Notes under the pieces: generated by a model
What the model was told of the DNA's origin: nothing
Databases searched by the model: none
What the model saw: only the letters and a program-made list of their open reading frames with translations
Assembly (NCBI GenBank): GCA_947584295.1
Contig: CANPWM010000014.1
Span: 1-44,102 of the forward strand
Length of the DNA stretch: 44,102 nt
From: an uncultured Oscillospiraceae bacterium
GTDB taxonomy: Bacteria; Bacillota; Clostridia; Oscillospirales; Oscillospiraceae
Direction of reading: 5' to 3'
Shown: positions 2,403-7,538 of the stretch, one piece after another
Layout of the letters: each line of letters begins with the position of its first letter
How positions within the stretch are numbered: position 1 is the first letter of the stretch
Translations under genes and position numbers: made by a program

Positions 2403-2530
2403 TTTCAGTTTTCCGCCTTTTGTATTTTACAAATTTGATTTTAACGGATTTCCGCAACTTTTTCAAGAGGGGATTTTTGCTTTTCTCACCTGTCTGCCAA
2501 TCCTGACAAAACTTACTCCGTCAACGCGCC

Positions 2531-2561
2531 GCATATCTTTTGCCGTCCGGGCAATTATAAT
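2531..2561 (+). promoter_or_regulatory. Candidate sigma-G (forespore) promoter of the spore-protein gene
   Basis: GCATA at 2531-2535, a 17-base spacer and AATTATA at 2553-2559 match the published sigma-G pattern (GYATR, 17-18 bases, CATNHTA) except for the first -10 base. A TATAAT overlaps at 2556-2561, but there is no sigma-A -35 box at a suitable distance. Forespore expression is the known rule for this gene family. The assignment here is inference. Confidence 0.5.
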
Positions 2562-2610
2562 CACGAAAGGCGTGAAGACGCGTTTCAATCAAAAAAGGAG
2601 ATGCAGAACA

Positions 2611-2871
2611 ATGGCTAACAGAAGCAACAAGATCAACATTCCCGAAGCCCGTGCGGCTATGGACAAGTTCAAGATGGAGTCCGCTTCCGAGGTTGGCGTC
2701 AATCTGAAGCAGGGCTACAACGGCGACCTCACCAGCCGTCAGGCCGGCTCCGTGGGCGGCCAGATGGTCAAGAAGATGACGCCCACGCGAACCTTCCTCG
2801 TCTCCCGGCAAAACCGCGCGGCCAACGGCCACGCGACGCAGATCCGCTACATAGCCAGCCTCGGGGTGTGA
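2611..2871 (+). CDS. Alpha/beta-type small acid-soluble spore protein, 3' end replaced by the inserted element
   Basis: Alpha/beta-type SASPs coat and protect DNA in the dormant spore core and are degraded by the GPR protease at germination. Residues 1-56 are a normal SASP: a MESASEVGVNL segment that fits the GPR cleavage region, and GSVGGQMVKKM, the conserved DNA-binding helix motif. After KKM the family would continue with an EAYE-type tail of about ten residues. Here 30 unrelated, basic residues follow (TPTRTF... to SLGV), encoded by the inserted element. The missing tail, IEAYENGLK and stop, lies at 7459-7487 as the end of the serine recombinase gene. The uninterrupted protein would have 65 residues, the usual size. 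The start at 2611 has AAAAAAGGAG upstream. Whether the chimeric 86-residue protein works is unknown. Confidence 0.9.
   Translation: MANRSNKINIPEARAAMDKFKMESASEVGVNLKQGYNGDLTSRQAGSVGGQMVKKMTPTRTFLVSRQNRAANGHATQIRYIASLGV
2768..2779 (+). other. Attachment-site core, left copy
   Basis: TCAAGAAGATGA inside the SASP codons Val-Lys-Lys-Met. It is identical to 7447-7458 and in the same codon phase. It is the left junction of the element. The exact crossover dinucleotide cannot be told from the sequence. Confidence 0.8.
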
Positions 2872-2877
2872 CGCCTC

Positions 2878-3303
2878 TCACACGCCGCCTGCGGGCTTCT
2901 CCACCAGCTCCACGATCCCCGCGCCCTTTTTCACCAGGAACGCCACCGGCGCGCCGCCAAAGGCCACGGCGGGGCTGGGCCTGCGCAAAATCCGCCACTT
3001 TCCGGCCCGCATGGCCTCCAGGCTGGCCGCCAGATCCTCCACCGCGTAGCAGATGTGGTACGGCCCCTCGCCGCAGGATCTCAGCCGCCCCGCCACGTCG
3101 GAGTTCTCCCCCAACGGAGCCACAAGCTCCACCACCGTCCCGCCGTTCTCCATAAAGCGCAGCAGGACGTTCCGGCAGGCCCCGGCGCCGTCCGACACGT
3201 CGTCCCGGATCACGCCGGTGACCGGCACAAAGCCCAGCTCGGCGAAGGCCGCCGCGGCGCTGTCCATATCCTTCACCAGATAGCCGATATGATCTACCTT
3301 CAC
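2878..3303 (-). CDS. VOC-family protein, methylmalonyl-CoA-epimerase-like
   Basis: A 141-residue protein of the vicinal-oxygen-chelate (glyoxalase/bleomycin-resistance) superfamily. Two beta-alpha-beta-beta-beta modules are visible. The metal-ligand positions look occupied: His in VDHIGYLV, Glu in TVVELVAP, His in PYHICYAV and Glu in GIVELVEKP, a pattern like methylmalonyl-CoA epimerase, although the second ligand there is usually Gln. The start is the GTG at 3303, preceded by GAGAGGG. The longer open frame upstream overlaps the acyl carrier protein gene and has no family similarity. It is the last gene of the FkbH-ACP-VOC operon (11 bases after the ACP stop). Its probable role is to act on a substrate held as a thioester. 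The real substrate is unknown. It stops 6 bases from the convergent SASP frame with no terminator between. Confidence 0.8.
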   Translation of the reverse strand: MKVDHIGYLVKDMDSAAAAFAELGFVPVTGVIRDDVSDGAGACRNVLLRFMENGGTVVELVAPLGENSDVAGRLRSCGEGPYHICYAVEDLAASLEAMRAGKWRILRRPSPAVAFGGAPVAFLVKKGAGIVELVEKPAGGV

Positions 3304-3314
3304 GCCGATCCCTC

Positions 3315-3560
3315 TCAAGCGCCCAGATGCCGCGTCAGCGCGTCCACGAGCTGTCCCACATTTTCCGATTTCGTCACCTCCGCCAGCGTGAAGGTGACGC
3401 CGAAGGCGTCCTCGATCTCGTTGGTGAACAGCAGATGCGTCAGGCTGTCCCACTCGTCCACGTCCGCCGCGGTGGTGTCGTCGGTGAGTACCACCGTGTC
3501 GTTGTCGAATACGTCTCTGGCGATCTCATTGATCCTCGCCATGATCTCTTCCCTGTCCAT
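3315..3560 (-). CDS. Acyl carrier protein
   Basis: An 81-residue acidic, helical carrier protein. The phosphopantetheine attachment serine is Ser39 in VDEWDSLTHL, the standard DSL site. The protein should be converted to the holo form by a phosphopantetheinyl transferase encoded elsewhere and then carry the acyl or glyceryl group for the partner enzymes. Its start codon overlaps the stop codon of the FkbH-like gene by one base (TAATG), so translation is coupled. The variation around the site (EWDSL rather than GADSL) is common in carrier proteins next to FkbH-like proteins rather than in fatty-acid synthesis. It is therefore probably dedicated to this operon, which is an inference from context. 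Confidence 0.9.
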   Translation of the reverse strand: MDREEIMARINEIARDVFDNDTVVLTDDTTAADVDEWDSLTHLLFTNEIEDAFGVTFTLAEVTKSENVGQLVDALTRHLGA

Positions 3561-5287
3561 TACTCCTCGCTCTCCTTGATATGGAATTTTCCCGGCCGGA
3601 AGCTCTCCGTATCCGCCCGGTAGCGGTTCTCCCCCGCCTCCTCAAAGCCCACGGTCTTGTAGATATCCTTCACCATGGCGTTTTTCGGCGTGGGGATATA
3701 CTCCCCCACCACCCACCTGTAACCGGCCTTTTTCGCCCGATCCATCAGCGCGGCGATGATAAACTCCTCCATTCCCCGCTTCAGCACCCGGCAGCTCATA
3801 AGCCATGTGTCGATGAACAGCGTATCCGCGCCGCTCCTGCGGCCCACCACCACGCCCACCAGGCCGTGGTCGCCGAATTTGTCCCTCAGCTCATAATAGA
3901 CGGTCAGGCAGTCAGGATCCTCCGCCAGCCGCCGGATATCCGCCTCGGTGTACCGCACCGTGCGCAGGTTGAACTGATTGGACCGCTGGGTGAGCTGTGC
4001 GACACGGGAATATACCGCCGGCTCAAAGGGCCGCGCCGTCCCCACCATCTCCAGGCTCTCCAGATACTCGTCCAGAGAGGCGTAGGCGGCCTTCAGCTTC
4101 TCCCGGGCCAGCTCCGCCTGATAGAGCCTCGTCCTGTCCGCGCCGGGGCCGGTGAAGGCGGCCGTCTCAAAATAATTCTGTCTCTGCAAAAAGTCAAGAT
4201 ACAGCGCCGGATCCTCCGGCAGCTCCGGCACCTCGATCTCCGGGATCATGCTCCGCACAAGCTCCCGCTCAAAGGGGTTGTCGTCCACGAACACCATGGC
4301 GTCCATGCCGATGTTCAGCGTGCGCTGGATAAGCCGGATATTCCCGGCCTTATCCTCCCAGTTGGCCACAAAGACGGCAATATCCTCCAGCCGCAGCACC
4401 ATCTCCGGGTTGCTCTCAAAGGGGCGCTTGGCGGCGGCCTCGTCGTTTTTACTGCACACGGCCAGAATAACGCCGCACTCCTTCAGCTCCTTGAGCCATC
4501 GCTGAAAATTGGTAAAGACGTGTCCCCGGCCCAGCTCGCCGATCTCGATGTTCTCCGGCCCGTCGTCCCCTACCACGCCGCCCCAGAGGGTGTTGTCCAG
4601 ATCCAGTATAAGGCACTTCTTGACGCGCCCCGACAGGGCCGCCTCCACGTCCAGGATCGCCTTGGCCGCGTAGGGCAGAGCCTCGGTGCCGATGGCCATC
4701 TTGGCGCTGTAATAGAGGGCCGGATCAAAAAAACGCTCCCGGCCCAGCTCCGCCTGAACCGCCATCAGATCCACCGGGTACACGTCCCCCCTGGCCGCCA
4801 TGCGCTCCTGGAGCAGATAATTCAGGCGGCGGAGCTGATAGACGAAGGCCGACTCCACCCGGCAGGAGAAATTGCCCAGGGCCCGGTCGGGGATCTCCGT
4901 AAACGTACACTGCAAAATGGCGGCGTTGGCGTGCCGCCCCAGGGCGTCCCAGTACATCTCCAGCCTTGCCAGAACGCCGTCGGCAAAGCCGCCGCGGCTC
5001 GCGGGGGCCATATCCAGAAATTCCTCATAGAGCTTCTCCGTGGCCAGATACAAAAGGACGCTGTCCGGGGCGCAGGCGTACAGCTCCGAGCCGTCCTCCA
5101 GCACCTGGGCCTCGATCTGATTGTATCCGGCGTCAAACACCGTCAGCGGCAGCTTCTCCAGGGCCGCCAGACCCCGCACCGCCATCGCCAGAAACTGCGT
5201 GGAGCAGTTCCCCAGGATCGCCAGCGTGCGCGCCTTGCCCGGGGCCGCCGTTTTGGCCGCCCTTCTCAGCTCATTGAAGGAATACAC
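3560..5287 (-). CDS. FkbH-like HAD-IIIC phosphatase/acyltransferase family protein
   Basis: A 575-residue protein. FkbH-type proteins belong to the HAD superfamily and, in characterised cases, move a glyceryl group from 1,3-bisphosphoglycerate to an acyl carrier protein. The layout seen is an N-terminal SGNH-like region (about 1-210, with GNCSTQF), a HAD domain with LILDLDNTLWGGVVGDDG (nucleophile region about residues 229-231) and VFVDDNPFERE, and a C-terminal GNAT-like domain (about 400-565). The GTG at 5287 is chosen as start because the promoter's -10 box lies at 5335-5340. An upstream TTG-initiated frame would begin inside the promoter. The gene leads an operon with an ACP and a VOC protein. 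No ketosynthase or other assembly enzyme is nearby, so the product is unknown. Confidence 0.85.
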   Translation of the reverse strand: MYSFNELRRAAKTAAPGKARTLAILGNCSTQFLAMAVRGLAALEKLPLTVFDAGYNQIEAQVLEDGSELYACAPDSVLLYLATEKLYEEFLDMAPASRGGFADGVLARLEMYWDALGRHANAAILQCTFTEIPDRALGNFSCRVESAFVYQLRRLNYLLQERMAARGDVYPVDLMAVQAELGRERFFDPALYYSAKMAIGTEALPYAAKAILDVEAALSGRVKKCLILDLDNTLWGGVVGDDGPENIEIGELGRGHVFTNFQRWLKELKECGVILAVCSKNDEAAAKRPFESNPEMVLRLEDIAVFVANWEDKAGNIRLIQRTLNIGMDAMVFVDDNPFERELVRSMIPEIEVPELPEDPALYLDFLQRQNYFETAAFTGPGADRTRLYQAELAREKLKAAYASLDEYLESLEMVGTARPFEPAVYSRVAQLTQRSNQFNLRTVRYTEADIRRLAEDPDCLTVYYELRDKFGDHGLVGVVVGRRSGADTLFIDTWLMSCRVLKRGMEEFIIAALMDRAKKAGYRWVVGEYIPTPKNAMVKDIYKTVGFEEAGENRYRADTESFRPGKFHIKESEE

Positions 5288-5334
5288 CGATGGTTCGCCC
5301 CCTCCCTGGTTGCCCTGTCCTAAAAGCTGCCCCA

Positions 5335-5363
5335 ATTATCTTTCATTTGACGCGGGTTGTCAA
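5335..5363 (-). promoter_or_regulatory. Sigma-A promoter of the FkbH-ACP-VOC cargo operon
   Basis: TTGACA (5363-5358), a 17-base spacer and GATAAT (5340-5335) on the minus strand give an almost perfect vegetative promoter. The transcript would start near 5328, about 41 bases before the GTG start, and would run towards and, without a visible terminator, into the antisense strand of the SASP gene. Confidence 0.85.
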
Positions 5364-5556
5364 TAGTTTTCATACAATTCCTTCAAAAACTCCCCCCGTC
5401 CATCTTTTAAAAATCCCTCCGCCGCCCCGCCGGAACACCGAACGGCCACTCCCCCCAAAGTCGTATAAAACCATGAAAAATCAGCCATACTCCACTAAGG
5501 CGGCGGGGATTGAACTCCCACTGCTTTAATCTACTAAACGGAAGGGAGTTTTCACC
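5364..5556. other. Intergenic stretch between divergent units of the element
   Basis: No gene is seen. It is C-rich on the plus strand, with no clear inverted repeat or consensus promoter for the small frame that follows. A TTGAAC and a TACTAA near 5510-5538 are 16 bases apart but lie too close to the ribosome binding site to be convincing. Confidence 0.4.
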
Positions 5557-5721
5557 GTGGACAGCCGGGAGCGGGACGCCTTGCCGGAGGAGATCTGGCT
5601 CACCTACTACAATAACTATCTCCTGTCGCGGGGCGTCCTCACGGAGTGCCAGCACGCTAGGCTCTGCCGGGACATCGCCCTCCGCCGCGCCCCGGAGCGG
5701 GACGCGCGGAGCGATGGATAA
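5557..5721 (+). CDS. Small hypothetical protein preceding the serine recombinase
   Basis: A 54-residue frame starting with GTG and preceded by GGAAGGGAG at a suitable distance. It encodes a charged peptide with the core PEEIWLTYYNNYLLSRGVLT. Short proteins with a similar YxNNYL...G.(I/L)T pattern are, as I recall, common just upstream of recombinase genes in Clostridia, often with a SHOCT-like helix. A role as a recombination directionality factor or regulator would be an attractive guess from position, but nothing in the sequence proves it. The GTG start, size and shortness leave some doubt that it is translated. Confidence 0.6.
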   Translation: MDSRERDALPEEIWLTYYNNYLLSRGVLTECQHARLCRDIALRRAPERDARSDG

Positions 5722-5748
5722 AGCCGCCAGCGCCGGAAGAACTTGGCA

Positions 5749-5776
5749 TTGCTTCTTTTTGCGCGTCTGGTATAAT
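5749..5776 (+). promoter_or_regulatory. Promoter of the serine recombinase
   Basis: TTGCTT (5749-5754), a 16-base spacer and a perfect TATAAT (5771-5776). The ATG at 5775 lies within this -10 box and cannot be the start codon. The ATG at 5808, about 25 bases beyond the expected transcription start and preceded by GGGAGG, is. Confidence 0.65.
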
Positions 5777-5807
5777 GGAAGAAAAGCTCACAGTGGGAGG
5801 CAAGGCA

Positions 5808-7487
5808 ATGGATATCCACACCGCGCGGCAGGAGCTGCGCACGCGCACCATATACGATCTCACCATGCGGGTGACCTTTTACGCCCGGGTGTCCAGCGAG
5901 AAGGACGAGCAGCTCAACTCCCTGGAGAACCAGATCTCCTATTACAGCGACCTGATCCGCAAAAATCCCCGCTGGACGTATGTGGAGGGCTACATCGACG
6001 AGGGCCTGTCCGCCGCCACCACCAAAAAGCGGGAGAGCTTTCACCGCATGGTGGAGGACGGCAAGGCGGGCAAGTTCGACTTCATCATCACCAAGGAGAT
6101 CACCCGGTTTGCCCGAAACACCCTGGACTCCATTCAATTCACCCGTGAACTGCTGGGGGCCGGGGTGGGCGTCTTTTTCCAGAACGACGCCATCAACACC
6201 TTGGACGAGGACAGCGAGCTTCGCCTCACCATCATGTCCGGCATCGCCCAGGACGAGCTGCGAAAGCTTTCAAGCCGCGTGAAATTCGGCCACGCCCAGG
6301 CCATCAAAAAGGGCGTGGTGCTGGGCAACAGCCGCATCTTCGGCTACCGCAAGGACGCGGGCCGCCTGGTCATCGACGAGTCCCAGGCCCCCCTGGTGCG
6401 GGAGCTTTTCCAGCTCTACGCCACGGGACAGTATTCCCTGCGCCAGCTGGAGCAGACCCTGTGGGAGCAGGGCTGGCGCAACCACCGGGGCGGCAGGCTC
6501 TCCCACACCACCCTGTCCGGCGTCATCGCCAACCCCAAATACAAGGGCTTCTACGTGGGCAACAAGGTCAAGGTGATGGATCTTTTTACCAAAAAACAAA
6601 AATTCCTCCCCCCGGAGGAATGGGTCATGTACCGGGACGAGACGGGCCAGACTGTCCCCGCCATCGTGCCAGAGGCGCTGTGGGAGCGGGCCAACCGGGT
6701 ACTGGCGGCCCGGAGCCAGGACGTGAAGGCCCGGCGGGGGATCTGCAACCACGCCAACCTGCTCACCGGCAAGCTCCGGTGCGCCCACTGCGGCGCGCCC
6801 TATTACCGGCGCGACAGCGTGGACCGGCAGGGGCGTAAAAACAGCAAGTGGGTCTGCTCCGGCAAGCTGAAAAACGGCGCCGGGTCGTGTCCCTCCCGCC
6901 CCATCTACGAGGAGGAGATCAAGCCCCTGCTGTTAGAGGTCTTTCAGGAGACCGGCGACGGCGCGGAGGCGTATCTGGAGGAATATCTGTCCCTTTACGC
7001 CGCCCGGTGCCGGGAGGACGGCGGCGAGGATCGGATCAGGGAGCTAAAGGAAACGATCCAGCTTGTCCGGCGGAAGCAGAGCAAGCTGCTGACCTACAAC
7101 ATCGAGGGTCAGATCACCGACGGGGACTTTCTCACCATGAACCGGGACTGCGACCGGGAGCTGGAGGCGGCGGAGGCGGAGCTTCAGGCGCTGGAGCAGA
7201 GCCGGGTCACCGGGGCGGAGCTGGACGCCCACCTGGCCGCCGTCAGGCAGGTGCTGCAGGAGGCCAGACATGACGCCGCCCGGGGGCTGATCACCAGGGA
7301 ATTTGTGGAAAGCTACATCGACAGTATCCTGGTCACTCCCGAGCCGGACGGCTCCCTGCGGCTGGATATCCGGATCCTCACCGGCGAGGAGACCCAAAAG
7401 CTCCTGAAAAAGCTCACCGGCGGCGCGGGCCGTACGGGCCACACGTTCAAGAAGATGATCGAGGCCTACGAGAACGGCCTGAAGTAA
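5808..7487 (+). CDS. Large serine recombinase carrying the attachment site in its 3' end
   Basis: A 559-residue large serine recombinase (resolvase N-terminal, recombinase and zinc-ribbon domains), which catalyses integration and excision through a Ser-DNA intermediate. Visible are the catalytic motif FYARVSS (Ser about 29), ITKEITRFARNTLD with active-site arginines, the recombinase domain (about 170-300, FGYRKDAGRLVIDE, LSGVIANPKYKG), a zinc ribbon (CAHC, then WVCSGKLKNGAGSC) and a coiled coil (about 400-480). The last residues, KKMIEAYENGLK, are not recombinase-like: they are the tail of an alpha/beta SASP. The codons for FKKM lie in the 12-bp repeat shared with the SASP gene at 2768. In the circular form the protein would end with the 30-residue tail now fused to the SASP, giving 580 residues. 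Confidence 0.95.
   Translation: MDIHTARQELRTRTIYDLTMRVTFYARVSSEKDEQLNSLENQISYYSDLIRKNPRWTYVEGYIDEGLSAATTKKRESFHRMVEDGKAGKFDFIITKEITRFARNTLDSIQFTRELLGAGVGVFFQNDAINTLDEDSELRLTIMSGIAQDELRKLSSRVKFGHAQAIKKGVVLGNSRIFGYRKDAGRLVIDESQAPLVRELFQLYATGQYSLRQLEQTLWEQGWRNHRGGRLSHTTLSGVIANPKYKGFYVGNKVKVMDLFTKKQKFLPPEEWVMYRDETGQTVPAIVPEALWERANRVLAARSQDVKARRGICNHANLLTGKLRCAHCGAPYYRRDSVDRQGRKNSKWVCSGKLKNGAGSCPSRPIYEEEIKPLLLEVFQETGDGAEAYLEEYLSLYAARCREDGGEDRIRELKETIQLVRRKQSKLLTYNIEGQITDGDFLTMNRDCDRELEAAEAELQALEQSRVTGAELDAHLAAVRQVLQEARHDAARGLITREFVESYIDSILVTPEPDGSLRLDIRILTGEETQKLLKKLTGGAGRTGHTFKKMIEAYENGLK
7447..7458 (+). other. Attachment-site core, right copy
   Basis: TCAAGAAGATGA within the Phe-Lys-Lys-Met codons of the recombinase. 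Downstream, the nine codons IEAYENGLK and TAA complete a SASP. This is the right junction of the element. Confidence 0.8.
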
Positions 7488-7508
7488 GGTCGTTTTCAAC
7501 CAAAAAGC

Positions 7509-7538
7509 GGGAGAAGGGCAGCCCCTTCTCCCCTTTTT
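7509..7538 (+). terminator. Intrinsic terminator, original 3' end of the split spore-protein gene
   Basis: A perfect 10-bp stem (GGGAGAAGGG with CCCTTCTCCC, four-base loop) followed by CTTTTT, 21 bases after the recombinase stop. By the reconstruction it is the native terminator of the SASP gene and is now used by the recombinase. Confidence 0.85.

Follow-up and report, generated by a model that had tools for sequence, protein, structure and literature searches.

A spore-protein gene split by a serine-recombinase element whose recombinase gene carries the missing 3' end

Sporulation genes as insertion sites

Several sporulation genes are described as split by an inserted element. In Clostridioides difficile, sigK is split by the skin element (skinCd), whose excision restores the gene. 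Its recombinase CD1231 is expressed from a sigma-A promoter, and CD1234, a recombination directionality factor of 72 residues, is under the control of sigma-E and SpoIIID, which limits excision to the mother cell (excerpts of PMC5025042). Further cases are SPbeta in spsM, vfbin in spoVFB, vrin in spoVR, gin in gerE and yin in yabG. Excision is reported for SPbeta, gin and yin; that of SPbeta is confined to the mother cell, so that the spore genome keeps the element (excerpts of PMC4191935). As far as the excerpts of the respective papers go, the five genes are described as mother-cell genes (yabG: PMC10681294), and none of them encodes a small acid-soluble spore protein (SASP). Here we analyze a DNA stretch of 44,102 bp from an uncultured Oscillospiraceae bacterium (the window; contig C14 of a 2.35-Mb genome in 123 contigs), in which an alpha/beta-type SASP gene is interrupted after codon 56 by an element of 4,679 bp.

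By analogy, the layout resembles that of skinCd, with the compartment shifted to the forespore, where the SASP is used. Shared with skinCd are a split sporulation gene, a serine recombinase gene with a sigma-A-like promoter and a small protein gene with a sporulation-type promoter. In contrast to skinCd, this element sits in a gene of the forespore, its small gene has promoters of the forespore type, the tail of the target forms the end of its recombinase gene, and excision is so far computed only. A sequence-only reading of this DNA had drawn the comparison to sigK/skin and spsM. It has to be corrected in one point: those are mother-cell genes, whereas the SASP gene is a forespore gene, so that excision would affect the genome going into the spore. 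If this is true, developmental DNA rearrangement is not confined to the mother cell, which leaves no descendants, but also reaches the forespore, which passes its genome on. The same reading knew of no SASP gene used in this way, and in the titles and abstracts of the open-access PMC literature, which leaves most subscription papers outside, no description of a SASP gene as an insertion site was found. Likewise, the terms SASP, ssp and small acid-soluble are absent from the main texts of the gin, yin and SPbeta papers. The small protein upstream of the recombinase and its forespore-type promoters are new here.

The split gene, its empty sites and the exchanged tails

The SASP open reading frame (ORF) at position 2611 is the only PF00269 match that a profile search found in the whole genome. 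It matches the first 51 of 59 profile positions and then continues with a tail of 30 residues. The sequence-only reading was right that the family-typical tail is lost after KKM; residues 57–86, however, are not junk but a conserved 30-codon tail. The missing nine residues, IEAYENGLK, form the C-terminus of the recombinase, as had been proposed. An exact 12-bp repeat, TCAAGAAGATGA, stands at both junctions in the same codon phase, its copies 4,679 bp apart, and a search of both strands found only these two copies in the window. Joining the flanks in silico yields a SASP of 65 residues ending in KKMIEAYENGLK, which differs by eye from intact SASPs of the same genus by a few residues only. The rebuilt gene has its own forespore-type promoter, similar to the region upstream of the SASP gene in three congeners, and a hairpin that is probably its original terminator (Table 1); the earlier reading had anticipated the rebuilt protein as well as both signals. 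Skin-type elements, too, divide a sporulation gene in frame and have a short core repeat at the junctions.

Table 1. Features of the split SASP gene and the inserted element, in window coordinates.
Feature	Position	Strand	Evidence
Forespore-type promoter of the SASP gene (GCATA ... CAATTATA)	2531..2559	+	sigma-F 11/13, sigma-G 9/11; region similar in three congeners
SASP gene 5' part, codons 1–56	2611..2778	+	PF00269, E 7.3e-26, profile 1–51 of 59
attL core repeat TCAAGAAGATGA	2768..2779	+	exact copy at 7447–7458
Element-encoded 30-codon tail and stop, now fused to the SASP; predicted integrase C-terminus in the circular form	2779..2871	+	27 tails compared; similar tails on free-form integrases
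Glyoxalase/methylmalonyl-CoA-epimerase-like ORF, cargo	2878..3453	-	PF13669
Acyl carrier protein, cargo	3315..3560	-	PF00550
FkbH-like HAD-IIIC protein, cargo	3560..5335	-	PF21211, TIGR01686
Sigma-G-like forespore promoter of the small ORF (GTATA-N18-CATACTC)	5463..5492	+	sigma-G 10/11, sigma-F 10/13; family-wide enrichment
Small conserved protein, candidate recombination directionality factor	5557..5721	+	57 members beside the recombinase; 26/31 carriers, 1/269 non-carriers
Weak sigma-A-like promoter of the recombinase (TTGCTT-N16-TATAAT)	5749..5776	+	9/12; stronger ones enriched family-wide
Large serine recombinase, last nine codons from the SASP tail	5808..7487	+	PF00239, PF07508, PF13408; phrog_95 integrase; alignment A1
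attR core repeat TCAAGAAGATGA	7447..7458	+	exact copy at 2768–2779
SASP gene 3' part, IEAYENGLK and stop	7458..7487	+	same residues as the intact SASP tail in three congeners
Terminator-like hairpin, probably of the original SASP gene	7509..7532	+	10-pair stem, then T-rich DNA

The empty site is found in three congeners (G117, G231 and G270), which have an intact 65-codon SASP gene with the same tail and a similar forespore-type promoter region. In a BLAST comparison, window positions 2499–2779 and 7437–7487 meet in G231 with an overlap of 22 bp, and likewise in G117 and G270. The gene lies near the block found at 13.5–19 kb of the window in G231 and G270 and near that found at 0.2–2.4 kb in G117. 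Since it thus lies near blocks that are also present in the window, it is the same locus. The cargo (2878–5335) has no DNA match in these three loci. Of the 34 genomes of the genus that were searched, 21 have a full-length SASP and lack any recombinase of this clade. The recombinase is present in all three genomes in which a 1–51 fragment is the best SASP match. No SASP was detected in one further carrier (G319) and in nine non-carriers.

A family sample of 300 genomes, including that of the window, gave recombinases of 60–78% identity in 30 other genomes. All 31 close recombinases end with the SASP tail after KKM. In 19 of the 30 other carriers, the SASP head is cut at about profile position 51; in four the gene is additionally cut near residue 28, in G235 the sole piece is a head ending near residue 28, and G186 has an intact SASP plus a head fragment. 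In 13 of the 30, or 14 loci with the window, a single contig holds the head (in G244 the middle piece) and the recombinase, correctly ordered and on one strand, and these loci span roughly 4.7 to 42 kb as read from the coordinates. The arrangement is therefore not a fixed ancestral state, because element-free relatives with an intact SASP exist, and the intact SASPs examined do not end like residues 57–86; either finding to the contrary would have spoken against the earlier reading. An artefact of assembly or binning is hardly credible. Many of the records, perhaps including that of the window with its 123 contigs, are metagenome assemblies, but the single-contig genome G128 and strain records, among them that of Pseudoflavonifractor phocaeensis An858, show the same arrangement, and together with the three empty sites this already contradicts such an explanation.

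The recombinase has the resolvase, recombinase and zinc-ribbon domains of a large serine integrase (PF00239, PF07508 and PF13408), so the element codes for its own site-specific recombinase. It is also the sole match to a phage family among the five element ORFs searched against Pfam and PHROGs; in this respect the element differs from SPbeta and the elements listed with it above, and it does not look like a prophage.

The 30-residue tail fused to the SASP head can be traced to the integrase. Of 29 tails extracted at attL, 28 have 30 codons and one has 32. R10, R13 and Y24 are invariant in the 27 tails of 30 codons that were compared, leaving out the 32-codon tail and that of L067, which reads like L133. 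From codon 9 onward the third codon positions are the most variable (0.63–0.64 versus 0.35–0.52), which is not the case for codons 1–8 beside the core. Tails of the same type terminate recombinases in their free form. Among 24 recombinases on viral contigs, five have a SASP-type tail, six the 30-residue type (L206 and L207 of 59% identity; L211, L213, L214 and L215 of 41–44%, with a more diverged tail; alignment A2) and seven another end, while two end early and four run off the contig. The recombinase in genome G383 is a seventh free-form integrase with the 30-residue tail. Since these tails end free-form integrases, attP lies within the coding end of the integrase gene. Judging from the compared tails, integration trades the 30-residue tail of the integrase for nine SASP residues, and the SASP receives the tail. 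Insertion, attachment site and tail exchange are evident from the sequence itself.

That recombinases of this family always ended like a SASP, by chance or from ancient times, would fit the SASP tail of all 31 close relatives in the family sample. This is contradicted by the different ends of the free-form relatives and by genome CCNA10, in which the element is inserted elsewhere, the recombinase has another tail and the SASP is intact; we give this explanation practically no weight. A second alternative is that the fusion of 56 SASP residues with the element tail still works as a SASP, so that no excision is needed. The cut spares all but the last nine residues of the 65, and the fused tail is conserved with invariant arginines. 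Its conservation, however, is explained by similar tails on free-form integrases. In addition, a second element cuts the SASP of some carriers near residue 28, and inverted insertions (see below) leave a SASP that ends at KNV or soon after. A functional fusion is thus improbable.

Phage and integrative mobilizable elements with large serine integrases share with this element the domain order and a short core. The attP deduced for genome G251, ACACGTTC-AA-GAACGTGT, is by eye also an inverted repeat around a dinucleotide, as in those systems. Unlike them, the element has its attP in the coding end of the integrase, both tails are translated in both states, and the 30-residue tail is under constraint at the protein level. 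It would be a naturally occurring integrase that receives a different C-terminus at every recombination. The attP deduced for the window has no clean inverted repeat, and two DNA patterns for attP and attR had no match in the viral contigs. On contig C28 of G383 (L304, L326), the free-form recombinase has the small ORF just upstream and, by eye, a mobilization-like protein on the same contig; the contig has no exact terminal overlap of 20–400 bases, and no SASP was found in that genome.

The small upstream gene and its promoters

A small ORF precedes the recombinase gene. It encodes a protein of about 50 residues with the pattern E..WL.YYN..L...G.ITE.ER..M..I (alignment A4), for which we consider a candidate function as directionality factor; it may represent a new family of such factors. 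In 54 of 76 loci (the window and those named genomes with at least 400 bp upstream) it lies on the same strand at most 500 bp from the recombinase. On the viral contigs L206 and L207 it is found 69 bp and 884 bp upstream, respectively, and it is present in none of 10 viral-contig relatives of 38–45% identity. In a profile search of the family sample (taken as the same 300 genomes, from the shared handles), it was detected in 26 of 31 carriers and in one of 269 non-carriers, G279, where it lies close to a contig end (Fisher p 2e-31 if the genomes are treated as independent). It is missing from five carriers, and in four of these a contig end truncates the recombinase or lies within about 230 bp of it. 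Where the small ORF is not adjacent to the recombinase, it sits in another part of the element or next to the SASP fragment (for example in G020, G244 and G039). Six members gave no significant Pfam or PHROGs match (best E-values 0.022 and 0.028). One annotated plasmid record matches at 33% identity, and two annotated phage records match at 53% and 33%, of which the former also ends with a SASP-type tail.

Promoters were scored against the Bacillus subtilis consensus table given in PMC3416734, with similar sequences removed and the mean of 20 shuffles as control. Thresholds were set before the result of the scan but after the upstream sequences had been read by eye. Upstream of the small ORF (54 of 70 sequences kept), sigma-F scores of at least 11/13 occur in 32 (shuffles 1.6, maximum 4) and sigma-G scores of at least 10/11 in 12 (0.8). 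The same sigma-F threshold is reached by 4 of 253 other ORFs (from 280; shuffles 3.6) and by 2 of 94 recombinase genes (from 123; 3.0). SASP genes, as positive control, gave 26 for sigma-F (1.1) and 20 for sigma-G (0.7) among 58 of 63 sequences kept. A second set of 28 small ORFs, partly from the same loci, contains sigma-F matches in 10 (0.6, maximum 3 of 50 shuffles). Strict regular expressions gave a weaker signal, with 5 of 57 for sigma-G (0.7 in shuffles) and 3 of 57 for sigma-F (0.0). No excess of sigma-E or sigma-K was seen among the 54 small-ORF upstreams. Sigma-A scores of at least 11/12, on the other hand, were found for 19 of the 94 recombinase genes (0.2), for none of the 54 small ORFs (0.1) and for 7 of the 253 other ORFs (0.2). 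The enrichment of SASP upstreams for sigma-F/G and not for sigma-E/K also sets this target apart from the mother-cell targets of the described skin-type cases. Since the consensus sequences of sigma-F and sigma-G are alike (according to excerpts of PMC3789822), the two are not separated here.

We consider it probable that the element is excised in the forespore under the direction of the small protein. The attB site of this large serine integrase element is the 3' part of the host alpha/beta-SASP gene and its attP the inside of the 3' end of the integrase gene, so that integration exchanges the C-terminal tails of two proteins and excision, as computed from the joined flanks, would rebuild the SASP exactly. 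Presumably, the integrase is made in vegetative cells from its sigma-A promoter and favors integration. The small protein, presumably made in the forespore under sigma-F/G, may then turn the integrase to excision and so provide an intact SASP gene at the place and time of its use. Once the spore has germinated, the small protein would be gone, and the circle would reintegrate or be lost. A more elaborate version, in which the element leaves the SASP in the forespore in each generation, stays with the spore in circular form and integrates again once the spore has germinated, while the exchanged tail tells the integrase its state (the 30-residue tail favoring integration, the borrowed SASP tail permitting excision), is speculative and in our view rather unlikely.

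With 30 carriers among the 299 other genomes of the family sample, 29 of them showing no intact alpha/beta-SASP gene, forespore excision would, if true, affect how these spore-forming gut bacteria produce resistant spores and how they spread. GPR is the protease that degrades SASPs; a GPR match was found in the genome of the window and in 30 of 35 genomes searched. The non-carrier G181 has none.

Mobility, unusual insertions and cargo

The sequence-only reading had left open whether the element is a developmental switch or a selfish insertion, and both agree with the findings. Its mobile side is well shown by comparison of genomes, with empty sites, unrelated cargo and horizontal transfer; the developmental side is supported indirectly, by the partner small gene and the forespore-type promoters. 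Because the cargo is unrelated between elements, they are mobile: it comprises Rep-like and FtsK-like proteins in G128, a relaxase and AbiEii in G116, a DUF5906/D5-like protein in G298, and transporter and metabolic genes in G227. The viral contigs L206 (137 kb) and L207 (100 kb) have phage-family genes near the recombinase, with NrdD on the former and a DNA polymerase and a primase on the latter. In some pairs the recombinases are more alike than the downstream host flanks (L171/L185, 97% versus 84%; L127/L128, 95% versus 85%) and in others the reverse holds (L167/L169, 85% versus 92%), which indicates separate insertions and movement.

A plain selfish insertion, with a conserved spore gene as attB, a SASP that stays broken and excision free of developmental control, therefore has to be weighed; we regard it as less probable, though the strongest of the alternatives. 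Unrelated cargo and recombinases that are more alike than their host flanks speak for mobile, young insertions; insertions in other genes exist (L168, G273), and non-carriers from 18 of the 20 carrier-containing genera are likewise present in the sample (counted by eye). The enrichment of forespore-type promoters at a small ORF tied to the element would, however, be unexpected for a purely selfish insertion, and the SASP halves show no decay: 26 split heads, excluding those beginning at the second element, contain no stop, and their codon-position ratio is 0.30 compared with 0.27 in 32 intact genes, with overlapping bootstrap ranges. The undamaged halves were dropped as proof of long-term selection, many insertions being recent, and are kept as weak support.

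Several observations weigh against forespore excision. Excision is known here only as the computed joining of the flanks. The elements move horizontally and recently, and because of this, young insertions could explain the intact-looking SASP halves. Excision in the forespore would, moreover, risk loss of the element from the progeny. Constraint on the SASP tails at attR is slightly lower than on intact tails (ratio 0.64 versus 0.52, from 107 rows with duplicates among them). No SASP piece was detected in five of the 30 other carriers (G152, G080, G262, G077, G286), and no GPR match in four carriers (G047, G167, G217, G296). A same-strand small ORF within 500 bp of the recombinase is lacking in 22 of the 76 loci, and a search of the upstream DNA of two viral-contig members of the clade, L204 and L205, did not find it either. 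As profile A4 derives from proteins encoded next to this recombinase, in part from the very genomes that were searched, its matches in carriers are to some extent built in; the informative part is hence the near-absence elsewhere. The promoters in the window are weaker than those of the family: sigma-F reaches 10/13, and sigma-A, with a poor -35 box, reaches 9/12, below what the scan reports. Finally, a middle fragment of the SASP in Flintibacter muris (DSM 110149; L151, G330:C1:87214-87309) seems to be oriented opposite to the recombinase and separated from it by about 89 kb, with C1 taken to be the contig of the recombinase. On balance, we still favor forespore excision.

The wider distribution was read from the best 80 recombinase loci in a scan of genome contigs, many of which come from genomes of the family sample. 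Their titles name Oscillospiraceae, the Butyricicoccaceae genera Butyricicoccus and Intestinibacillus, and Flintibacter and relatives; many name only Clostridia or Bacillota. Cultured carriers with a split SASP gene include Pseudoflavonifractor phocaeensis An858 and Intestinibacillus massiliensis. Among these 80, 76 end in the SASP tail, three stand head-to-head with an inverted SASP head and one has another tail. Eleven of the genomes were checked for SASP genes: nine have pieces only, one has none detected, and CCNA10 has an intact gene. The latter is expected, since the insertion in CCNA10 (L168:10001-11734) is outside the SASP; the tail of its recombinase looks like what we take to be the end of a Y-family polymerase. 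In the inverted insertions (L154:2430-4228, L188:10001-11787, L202:2476-4265) the recombinase has TGHTFLTI or TGHTFLTM as its C-terminus and is directed towards a SASP head on the other strand that stops at KNV or soon after. Butyricicoccus pullicaecorum DSM 23266 is a cultured strain with such an inverted insertion. By eye, TT is found at their central dinucleotide, consistent with this dinucleotide setting the orientation.

Other rearrangements were seen in single loci. In L305:1007-2542 (G273) a gene that by eye resembles those of solute-binding proteins is fused to an element-type tail. A different serine recombinase stands at a SASP break near residue 28 in L160:2434-4343 and also in L115, L116, L117, L118 and L134; DUF4368 was found in that of L160, the only one tested. 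The SASP gene of some genomes is thus broken into three pieces, and two different elements seem to have entered one gene of 65 codons. L306:5775-5970 (G361) shows a SASP-like end, GSAGGRMVKKM, fused to an element-type tail; its contig also carries an intact SASP at a distance of about 8.4 kb.

Within the window, the cargo of FkbH-like protein, acyl carrier protein and glyoxalase-like protein (2878–5335) resembles a small acyl-ACP pathway. Outside the element, an ORF at 232–1599 with motifs that look by eye like those of a tyrosine integrase lies beside a tRNA-Thr gene (1777–1852), which is perhaps another integration site.

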